Source: Hydnum rufescens UP504
Taxonomy: Eukaryota > Basidiomycota > Agaricomycetes > Cantharellales > Hydnaceae
Length of the DNA stretch: 64,000 nt
Assembly (NCBI GenBank): GCA_014904985.1
Contig: MU128915.1
Location: 131,415 to 195,414, forward strand
Direction: 5' to 3'
Under the pieces are notes generated by a model that was not told where the DNA came from, did no database searches, and saw only the letters and a list, made by a program, of their open reading frames with translations. Position 1 is the first letter of the stretch. Every line of letters starts with the position of its first letter. Both the position numbers and the translations under genes were made by a program. Below, in pieces: positions 28,921-31,815 of the stretch.

Positions 28921-29589
28921 CTCTTCGCGAGTCGTTTTTGCATACGATTTTGGGCTCTTGCTGTGTCTCCTTGTTATGTGCATCCTGTCAAACTCACTGT
29001 GCCATTTGTTGTGTATGATACGTTCAATACTCTGTCACTTTTTACAAACCTTGAAAAAACCACCGGCCGTCCCGAACGACTGGGCACGAGACTATTACTT
29101 CGCTAATTCGACTTACGTGTTGAGTCTTCCAGGGGCAACTTCAGGGGATGTGCCCGTCAGACCCTTCAGGCACGCCTGTCATTACAGTAGCTCGCATTTT
29201 TTTTCCCTGGAGCTCCCATGATCTCGGCTGTCCTCATTGCTTCGTCAGCAGCAAGGTTCTCGGGATGTACCGAACGGTTCAAACATATGTCCCTGAGCTT
29301 GTTCTTGCGGCTGCCATCAGGCACAATAGTGACTCGACGCGGATACAAAACCCATAACTCGCATCGACGCAGGAACCTGCGAGCACTCGACCAGCCGGTA
29401 CTTTGAGGGCGATTTTTGATCCCCAAAGGACAAGGATTTTGGGTCCTAAAATACTGTGGTTAAACCCTACAAAAATGTGCCAAAACTACTTGCAGCCGGC
29501 AGAACCTTCACATCCAGAAAAACGAATGCTACTTTTTAACTCCCCAGAGCTAGGGAAGTTCTCCCACCACAGAGCCATTTTCCACTCTT
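28921..29589. other. spacer between the 28-kb gene and the hairpin array
   Basis: I see no gene. Sequence from about 29590 onward belongs to the inverted repeat that brackets the array. Confidence 0.5.
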
Positions 29590-29630
29590 GACTTTCCGCC
29601 CTACCCGGATGTAAACCGAGAATTCGGCGC
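29590..29630 (+). repeat. left inverted repeat bracketing the hairpin array
   Basis: GACTTTCCGCCCTACCCGG followed by ATGTAAACCGAGAATTCGGCGC is the reverse complement of 31492-31540, apart from an 8-nt insertion (TCTCAGTT-type) and one substitution in the right arm. The two arms face each other across about 1.9 kb that contains the whole exon-intron array. Confidence 0.8.
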
Positions 29631-29917
29631 AACAATAGTGTAGGTGGCACGTGAGTTGACCATCCAGATTTGCTTCCTGTGTTTGTTTACTTGATGCAAA
29701 GACATGCACCGCGGCCAGCTCCCGTGCACCCGTGATGTGACCAACGCCGACAATGGGACGAACGGTAATCCCATCAGTTGTCATTATGACCCGTTGCGGG
29801 TCCTGCGACCGGTACAACCGAAGAATAGGAAGATCGAGACCGCTGGCGACATAACTAGGATACCGCCTAGAAAGGCAAGCAGACGACCACACCCGCAACA
29901 GCGGGTGTGGTCCAAAG

Positions 29918-30025
29918 GTGAGTTTTTCATTGGTAGTAGATACAACGGCACAAAAAGAGCGGCGAAAGCTGCTCTTTTTGCGCTACTTTGAATTTCTTTA
30001 CTGACCACCTTTTAATTCATTCTAG
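29918..30025 (+). other. intron-like segment 1 with internal hairpin
   Basis: Donor AAG|GTGAGT, acceptor TTCATTCTAG|GT. Inside, CAAAAAGAGC (29951-29960) pairs with GCTCTTTTTG (29971-29980). Length 108 nt. Confidence 0.7.
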
Positions 30026-30251
30026 GTCATGGCATGGCATCAAATGAAACCCCCCCAAACGACGAGACCTGGTCGGCCAGGGCCCCAGCGGCAACACGGA
30101 ACCGAAACCACGCGAAACGAAACCGAGCCAAACGAAACCACGCCAAACCAATGGAACAGCGCCAAACGAAAACGCGAGAGGTGGCCACGCACCACCCGAG
30201 TGGCCCCGTGAAGCACACACCTGCTGCGGCAGGTGTGTGGTTCTATGTAAG

Positions 30252-30344
30252 GTAAGTGCACCCCCAACGGCGCACAAAGAGCAGCATTTGCCGCTCTTTT
30301 TGCGCCGGTTTTAATTTATTTAACTAATATATCTATTATTCTAG
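30252..30344 (+). other. intron-like segment 2 with internal hairpin
   Basis: Donor AAG|GTAAGT, ACTAAT near 30323, acceptor TATTCTAG|GT. The hairpin GGCGCACAAAGAGC with GCTCTTTTTGCGCC has one mismatch. Length 93 nt. Confidence 0.75.
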
Positions 30345-30503
30345 GTGGCCACAAATGAAGACCGGTGAAACAAACCCGCCCGAAATGGTAACCTGCCCGC
30401 AAAGCGAATCCCACAAACGATGACGCACCAAACGAAGACACGAAGCGACGCCAAACCATATGAACCCCACACCCGCTATCGCGGGTGTGTGGGTCTATAC
30501 AAG

Positions 30504-30593
30504 GTAAGTAATCCGCCCCCAACGGCGCAAAAAGAGCAGCCCTTGCCGCTCTTTTTGCGTTCATTTTAACTAACGCATTGTTTATTATCCTAG
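30504..30593 (+). other. intron-like segment 3 with internal hairpin
   Basis: Donor AAG|GTAAGT, branch-like TAACTAAC near 30567-30574, acceptor TATCCTAG|GT. A perfect 12-bp hairpin pairs CGCAAAAAGAGC (30526-30537) with GCTCTTTTTGCG (30548-30559). Length 90 nt. Confidence 0.8.
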
Positions 30594-30791
30594 GTTATCG
30601 CCTCAACCACCCGCCAAACGAATCCCTCCCCCCCCCTGGAAATCATAACACCTGGCAAACGAGAGCCACAAACACGACCCGCCCAGGAACATCCGCCAGA
30701 CGAAACCCGGGAACGGGAACATACGACGCAAGACCGCAGGGACCCCAGACGAGCCACACACCCGCCAAAGCGGGTGTGTAGTAATTTTAAG

Positions 30792-30888
30792 GTAAGTATG
30801 ATCCTGCAAAAGGAGCAGCGTGTGCTGCTCCTTTTGCGTGGCTTTCTTTCCCCTCCCTTTTTTACTAACACATTATTTATTATCCTAG
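30792..30888 (+). other. intron-like segment 4 with internal hairpin
   Basis: Donor AAG|GTAAGT, branch-like TTTACTAACA, acceptor TATCCTAG|GT. A perfect 14-bp hairpin pairs GCAAAAGGAGCAGC (30806-30819) with GCTGCTCCTTTTGC (30824-30837) around a 4-nt loop. Length 97 nt. Confidence 0.8.
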
Positions 30889-31080
30889 GTTTTCATCTGA
30901 AGCACAACCCCGACCAACCCCCAATCAAGATCCGCGGCCCCGCTGAGCAAACACACGAGAACGGCAACCCACCCCCCAAACGAAATCCGCGAACGGCAAC
31001 AAAGTTGAAAACACGACACAAGACCACAGAAACCCCGGACAAACCCCACACCCGCTGAAGCGGGTGTGGTAATTTTTGAG

Positions 31081-31203
31081 GTAAGTATTCACCGTCTATA
31101 AGTATGATCGCGCAAAAGGAGCAGCGTGCGCTGCTCCTTTTGCGTGGTTTTTCTTTTTTACTAACTTATTATTTGTGATCATGGGTATTTTTCTGAACCC
31201 ACA
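31081..31203 (+). other. intron-like segment 5, conserved acceptor lost
   Basis: Donor GAG|GTAAGT and branch-like TTTACTAACT are kept. The hairpin is the longest: CGCAAAAGGAGCAGCG at 31111-31126 pairs with 31129-31144. At the place of TATCCTAG the sequence reads GTGATCATGGG, so the conserved 3' splice site is gone. The next plausible AG is CCCACAG at 31197-31203. About 17 extra bases follow the donor. Confidence 0.65.
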
Positions 31204-31491
31204 GCCCGCACCAACCCCCAACCAAACCCTCTCCCCCGACCCAAAACTCACACAAACCGCCAAACGAAAATGCGTGACCCCGGGTGATGGGAGGATATGT
31301 AGAAGATAATAATTGTAATCATGAATGAATAATTATAAACAAAACACACCACTCCAGAGGGCTCCATTTTTTTTCACATAGAGTCTGACTTCGTGCCCGA
31401 TTGTGAACTTGGATTTTGGTTAGAGATACAGGATGGATTTAAATTTAAATTTATTTATTTATTTCTCTACACTTGCGCTGAGCGGTGTTGA

Positions 31492-31540
31492 GCGCCAAAT
31501 TCTCGGTTCTCAGTTTTACATCCGGGTAGGGCGGAAAGTC
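31492..31540 (-). repeat. right inverted repeat bracketing the hairpin array
   Basis: This is the reverse-complement partner of 29590-29630. It reads GCGCCAAATTCTCGG, a short insertion, then ACATCCGGGTAGGGCGGAAAGTC. It lies about 280 bp beyond the last array unit. Confidence 0.8.
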
Positions 31541-31815
31541 CTCAACTGCCATTTTCGCGTTGCGGCTAATTCCGGATCGTGGGATATTGCCTTTTATGTG
31601 TTGAACCACTTCACTTAGGGCTCGCAGGGGTCCTATCGTCGCTGACACCGGTCAGGGCTCATACCTTCTGTCACAATCATCTCAAGTATCTCATTTCTAG
31701 CTTTCTCCTAGGGGGTACCCGCCGCCTTCACATCGAACAGCAATTTCTGGTATCGAATTTACCGTACGCCTTCACTTCGCACGCGCGCCCGCTTCGTGTT
31801 CCGAGTCAGGACATC

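Follow-up and report, generated by a model that had tools for sequence, protein, structure and literature searches.

Hairpin-marked exon-intron units on a MULE-like transposon of Hydnum rufescens: a candidate spliced noncoding RNA gene

Multi-exon noncoding host genes, for example those of snoRNAs, combine fast-changing exons with one conserved structured element per intron. Introners are spliceable introns tied to DNA transposons, and introner families can have inverted ends and target duplications of 3–9 bp, as outlined in PMC9860276. The symmetrical stwintrons of the Hypoxylaceae are, in the account outlined in PMC8469720, proliferating introns within genes, with terminal inverted repeats of 45–55 nt and without flanking duplications. 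Non-autonomous MULEs, finally, have terminal inverted repeats, a 9-bp target duplication and a transposase element (PF10551) with related ends.

We analysed a window of 64,000 nucleotides (C7:131415-195414) from the hedgehog mushroom H. rufescens UP504, a species named in PMC7550596, in which positions 29887–31203 hold five tandem exon-intron-like units. The array resembles snoRNA-type host genes in its apparently noncoding, fast-changing exons and in the conserved structured element of each intron, but differs by a second hairpin at the exon ends, by its transposon carriage and by its thousands of units. It shares with introners (as outlined in PMC9860276) the link between spliceable introns and DNA transposons, whereas here one transposon holds several introns together with their own exons instead of a single intron. 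With stwintrons (PMC8469720, to the extent outlined there) it has in common that fungal introns holding inverted sequences multiply; here, in contrast, short hairpins lie inside the introns of transposon-borne arrays. The carrier shows the MULE hallmarks listed above, but its cargo is an ordered exon-intron-like array, and related arrays also occur between other ends. Thus, the carrier is of a known transposon kind and the novelty lies in the carried array, which matched no described family; among the open-licence PMC papers retrieved by our searches, none describes such arrays in its title or the start of its abstract. We propose, from the sequence and with a probability of roughly 0.55, that the window copy is a non-autonomous MULE-like transposon carrying a noncoding multi-intron RNA gene which would be selected for splicing and for its hairpins.

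Architecture of the array and its carrier

Each unit starts with an exon-end hairpin, S1 (CACACCCGC, 4 nt, GCGGGTGTG, or a close variant), which is followed after 5–13 nt by a donor, the intronic hairpin S2 (core GAGCAGC, 4 nt, GCTGCTC, or a close variant), a site resembling a branch point and an acceptor, the latter present in four of the five units (Table 1). The original prediction of five consecutive units in this order was borne out. Its assignment of ACTAAC to units 2–5 holds for units 3–5, unit 2 having ACTAAT, and its TCTAG/CCTAG acceptor is present in units 1–4 and replaced in unit 5 by CATGG, a variant also found in L009 and L010 at a position occupied by CATAG in most relatives. Exons 2–4 contain 10% T and introns 1–4 34%. 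The S2 pattern, fitted to the window, gave five matches compared to a shuffle mean of 0.03, which excludes chance, and the predicted RNA folding of the five units is 5.5 to 8.8 SD below that of dinucleotide shuffles (100 each).

Table 1. Positions of the transposon and array features in the window; intron-like segments begin with the donor GT and, in units 1–4, end with the acceptor. Positions in the last row refer to the loci named.
Feature	Position	Strand	Details
Whole non-autonomous MULE-like transposon	29583..31547		inverted ends, 9-bp target duplication, same ends in other copies
Left target-site duplication gccattttc	29574..29582		
Right target-site duplication gccattttc	31548..31556		
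Left terminal inverted repeat CACTCTTGACTTTCCGCCC...	29583..29632	+	
Right terminal inverted repeat ...GGGCGGAAAGTCCTCAACT	31492..31547	-	
Leader-like stretch CCGCCTAGAAAGGCAAGCAGACGA	29863..29886	+	directly before unit 1; similar before many other arrays
Unit 1 exon-end hairpin S1	29885..29912	+	12-bp arms, 4-nt loop; core from 29888
Unit 1 intron-like segment	29918..30025	+	GTGAGT; S2 29951-29980 (core from 29957); ACTGAC 30000-30005; TCTAG
Unit 2 exon-end hairpin S1	30210..30243	+	core from 30216
Unit 2 intron-like segment	30252..30344	+	GTAAGT; S2 30273-30302 (core from 30279); ACTAAT 30323-30328; TCTAG
Unit 3 exon-end hairpin S1	30462..30495	+	core from 30468
Unit 3 intron-like segment	30504..30593	+	GTAAGT; S2 30528-30557 (core from 30534); ACTAAC 30569-30574; CCTAG
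Unit 4 exon-end hairpin S1 (core)	30757..30778	+	
Unit 4 intron-like segment	30792..30888	+	GTAAGT; S2 30806-30837 (core from 30813); ACTAAC 30864-30869; CCTAG
Unit 5 exon-end hairpin S1 (core)	31047..31068	+	
Unit 5 intron-like segment	31081..31184	+	GTAAGT; S2 31113-31142 (core from 31119); ACTAAC 31160-31165; acceptor mutated (CATGG)
Last exon-like stretch and A/T-rich 3' end	31203..31361	+	
Short array-less elements	L016 1235-1883; L019 2953-3545; L020 1183-1818; L021 2034-2674; L022 1708-2334		

The array sits inside an element of 1,965 bp that has inverted ends and is flanked by a perfect 9-bp target duplication. L009 and L010, two further array copies, share the ends of the window transposon and have perfect 9-bp duplications of their own. 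Related arrays lie between non-window ends in L015/L016, L024/L025 and L028/L034, with perfect 9-bp duplications in L015, L024 and L025. Among the twelve array-bearing copies whose ends were displayed and read by eye, six have a perfect 9-bp duplication and six are truncated, nested or unclear. Array-less short elements of ca. 590–650 bp, whose ends resemble the window transposon's, are also present, and all five have a perfect 9-bp target duplication.

The genome search for PF10551, the MULE transposase, gave 13 matches. The best of these (39.7 bits, one stop inside) lies at C39:59486-63669 (L042), where the ends are 80% like those of the window transposon over 46 bp and the duplication matches at 8 of 9 positions. 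An end of the L024 type adjoins a second PF10551 match (L040), for which no matching right end was found within the 3.2 kb examined. In eight MULE loci (seven places), the unit profile detected no units beside the transposase. Because of the inverted ends, the 9-bp duplication and the PF10551 element with related ends, the carrier of the window array is, by the features tested, classified as a non-autonomous MULE-like transposon.

A first reading, derived from the copy L010 on C78, saw in the array the 3' terminus of a tyrosine-recombinase retrotransposon. It was rejected: the 4.8-kb coding stretch of L010 is a nested insertion, because it breaks the transposon near a site corresponding to window position 29692, where the window copy is continuous. 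This retrotransposon (L010 3628-8453, minus strand), inserted in another copy of the window transposon, has open reading frames with an RT-like xxDD motif (by eye) and for a 422-aa recombinase, whose relatives are named DNA breaking-rejoining enzyme. The C9 copy, in a part absent from the window copy, contains a tandem-repeat region of about 1.3 kb (L009 3050-4365).

Conservation of splice signals and palindromes

For the analysis of constraint, 124 units from other loci were aligned according to their best match to window units 1–5 (32, 24, 19, 26 and 23 units, respectively). The mean column conservation is highest in S2 (0.92), followed by branch (0.88), donor (0.86), S1 (0.85), acceptor (0.84), the other intron positions (0.75) and the exons (0.67). 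Each of the six non-exon classes exceeds all 10,000 resamples of exon columns, a comparison which ignores kinship, and descent from recent common masters may account for some of the conservation. The most conserved columns are thus those of the hairpins and splice signals, and related arrays align with the window array in unchanged order (e.g. L015–L018 and L023–L027), both in support of the earlier suggestion of an intron-carrying module amplified in tandem. The profile yielded 130 unit matches, a few on the wrong strand, of which 120 remained without near-duplicates and 14 failed the hairpin parse. Among the 106 parsed units, the donor reads GGTAAGT or GGTGAGT in 67 and the branch ACTAAC, ACTAAT or ACTGAC in 91. 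A strand-blind search around 137 S2 cores in 30 loci found 77 cores accompanied by exact donor and branch motifs on one strand (115 with one donor mismatch permitted) and none with motifs on both strands; the corresponding numbers for 1,474 random positions are 0 and, with the mismatch, 13. It should be considered that 27 of the 30 loci were chosen because they resemble the window array or its ends, and that the copies are related.

The most serious alternative to an RNA gene is that the palindromes act as DNA. S1 and S2 would then be binding or cruciform sites for the transposase or a host protein, and the intron-like motifs would be a remnant or would only splice the element out of host messages. 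We consider this possible, although not the preferred solution. Several properties agree with it. The stem cores of S1 and S2 are conserved in sequence, and spacing is nearly fixed: when loops of 0–20 nt were searched between exact arms in the 30 loci, 90 of 100 S2 hairpins had 4 nt (8 had 3 nt and 2 had 5 nt), as did 52 of 55 S1 hairpins (2 with 5 nt, 1 with 10 nt). Paired changes keep the pairing in both stems at some positions. At pair 8 of S2, A-T is found in 81 and G-C in 46 of 134 units, with 129 paired compared to a shuffle mean of 70, and pair 10 of S1 is paired in 94 of 112 compared to a mean of 60. Such changes fit RNA hairpins and DNA palindromes alike. Mismatches in S1 are about equally G-U (44) and A-C (42), and RNA pairing is therefore not favoured for this stem, whereas the first 14 pairs of S2 have 68 G-U against 45 A-C, a modest excess in a count that ignores kinship. 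Hairpin pairing was consequently dropped as a proof of RNA, since the mismatch ratio does not separate the two options for S1 and does so weakly for S2.

Moreover, the loops are exactly inverted between close copies in 14 of 124 hairpin pairings, which in our own reading correspond to at least five separate events. Examples are TGAA/TTCA and ACAC/GTGT between L024 and L025 (unit 5), and AACA/TGTT and GAAA/TTTC within the group of window, L009 and L010 (units 1 and 5). As loop flips are DNA-level events, the palindromes must, at least sometimes, form hairpins or recombine as DNA, and a DNA-level role is for this reason a live rival. However, palindromic sites alone leave unexplained why conservation of the splice signals about equals that of S1, why these signals vary as splicing tolerates (GTAAGT/GTGAGT, CTAAC/CTAAT/CTGAC, YAG) and why they do so on one strand only. 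We consider it probable that the array is transcribed and spliced.

Paired arrays, array borders and public gene models

Clear arrays on both strands are present in seven loci (L023, L028, L030, L032, L034, L044 and L045), a call from which ambiguous or lone weak matches, e.g. in L031, L032 and L033, were left out. In each locus a '-' array precedes a '+' array, head to head; tail-to-tail neighbours occur in addition in L030 and L044. The interval that separates the first S2 of one arm from that of the other spans 330–989 bp and is matched by its own reverse complement at 70–97%; the match covers the full interval in five loci and a section of it in L030 and L045. In a loose test (up to 4 edits in 15; several doubtful), 21 of 26 array starts are preceded by a leader-like match to CCTAGAAAGGCAAGC, which is missing before L024, L026, L030(+), one L044(-) and L045(-). 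The motif GGCAATTGCC (up to 1 mismatch) was found upstream of 15 of the 26 starts, none of them in the window group. Between the head-to-head arrays of L028 and L034 lies a palindromic centre, in which GAGCTCAATGAGGCAT flanks a few bases on both sides. Located beside A/T-rich boxes and GGCAATTGCC, this centre is a candidate two-way promoter.

At the opposite border, an A/T-rich stretch recurs after the last unit in many loci; in L033 and L044 extra S1-type hairpins lie between the last unit and this 3' end. Among nine arrays with other ends that match through unit 5, the similarity to the window ends at 31352–31362 in six and at 31247, 31326 and 31464 in the remaining three. The prevalent stop point is situated inside the element, before the right transposon end, and the putative transcription unit rather than the transposon looks like the conserved entity.

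The head-to-head layout might also indicate a source of double-stranded or small RNA, long inverted transcripts feeding or blocking RNA silencing. The orientation of the arms and their self-complementary centre in seven of seven two-stranded loci are compatible with this idea, but the window copy is single-armed and splice signals would be unnecessary for such a role, which makes it improbable.

Even less likely is a protein-coding gene family with repeats. Four public H. rufescens gene models are similar to the array; three of them were mapped to array loci on C7, C418 and C244, and the fourth, BS47DRAFT_1365402, was found by similarity. BS47DRAFT_1336547 maps to the window with 184 of 191 residues and contains precisely the introns of units 2 and 3 (30252–30344 and 30504–30593), while it joins the unit 4 donor to an acceptor at 31029 and the unit 5 donor to one at 31204, and its further intron 30388–30437 corresponds to no unit intron. 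BS47DRAFT_1369411 (194/194 residues, L025) uses two unit introns and BS47DRAFT_1368058 (227/227 residues, L011) one unit intron with both borders; their remaining introns share one unit border or none. Hence, five introns in the three mapped models have both borders at unit borders, although a predictor that keeps the reading frame could also choose them. The spliced window exons contain an open frame of 173 residues over two junctions, but exons poor in T are expected to give long frames by chance. The window exon lengths (226, 159 and 198) alone decide nothing. The models depend on non-unit introns, and a Pfam domain was found in none of the four. Of the 201 exon indels, only 36 have a length divisible by three, so that coding constraint is absent, and the exons are the least conserved part of the unit. 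The protein-coding reading was rejected on the basis of these indel lengths, by which the frame is not kept across copies.

Genomic abundance and a possible role

In the assembly of 63.2 Mb, exact S2 cores with loops of 3–5 nt occur 5,299 times compared to once for the reversed pattern; if one mismatch is permitted and the loop is fixed at 4 nt, the numbers are 6,409 and, for the control, 29. Exact S1 cores amount to 1,473 (reversed control, 0). An exact GGTAAGT precedes an S2 core in 487+433 = 920 matches and an S2 core precedes CTAAC in 1,287+1,257 = 2,544, both with backward controls of 0; these are numbers of matches, a few CTAAC sites entering twice or from both strands. Given a unit length of about 280 bp, the units would constitute ca. 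2% of the assembly or more. Two scans of viral contigs with the exact hairpin patterns gave no match. In the first look, 40 of 1,494 candidates were scored.

A mere satellite, or copies devoid of splice motifs, would have spoken against the amplified module; most examined copies keep the motifs, and they are dispersed and bounded by transposon ends. The tandem-repeat finder shows only a patch with a 15-bp period, and the units are ordered and unlike each other. Rfam, searched at the gathering score, has no match in the window, and an assignment of the intronic RNA to a known family was discarded. An introner-type element seeding introns into genes, the other option of the original prediction, is the least probable reading: the full splice signals of the units and the inverted ends with duplications in the range outlined for introner families (PMC9860276) would suit it, but the units are arrayed and bring along exon-like stretches of their own, the array is enclosed by the transposon ends, which do not coincide with intron borders, and the two seemingly isolated exact S2 cores that were examined, a small sample of 2 among 5,299 sites, are both located in diverged arrays. 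Judged by its sequence, the array thus fits neither an introner (given this small sample), nor a satellite, a known Rfam family or a coding gene.

The prediction's alternative of a noncoding structured-RNA host gene, on the other hand, fits the array anatomy, and we infer that the constraints as a whole are explained most economically by a noncoding, multi-intron transcription unit that transposons move. The array would behave as noncoding host genes of intronic RNAs do. Against an RNA gene stand the public models, which are treated as proteins, and their several introns with one unit border or none. In a scenario for this RNA gene, RNA polymerase II would transcribe the array from the leader. 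The introns would be removed, S2 shortening the distance between donor and branch site and leaving with the lariat, and an S1 hairpin would close each exon. S1 hairpins strung on A/C-rich linkers would consequently make up the mature RNA, and a set of S2 hairpins the lariats. Since the stem cores are conserved in sequence beyond the demands of pairing, we propose that a host or transposon protein might bind them, the RNA serving as multi-site platform or decoy. That such a protein-bound RNA helps its carriers to persist is a speculative extension, and we regard it as rather doubtful.

Splicing-coupled silencing of transposons is a topic of research in Cryptococcus. More tentatively than for the window copy itself, the arrays may represent a hitherto undescribed class of selfish noncoding RNA genes, ordered and hairpin-marked, often paired from a palindromic two-way leader and transported by several kinds of transposon ends. 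The spliced RNA and the hairpin-bearing lariats would then be the product, acting for instance as a decoy for splicing-coupled silencing or as a protein platform; the link to such silencing is a guess.

The arrays would explain odd repeat-rich gene models in H. rufescens, and with more than 100 variant hairpin-intron units they offer a natural library for splicing studies. If the proposed reading is correct, non-autonomous transposons can carry and spread a selected, spliced noncoding RNA gene, with thousands of units in this one genome, and would permit a direct test of why a transposon needs introns, be it for avoiding or capturing splicing-linked silencing, for protein recruitment or for expression.
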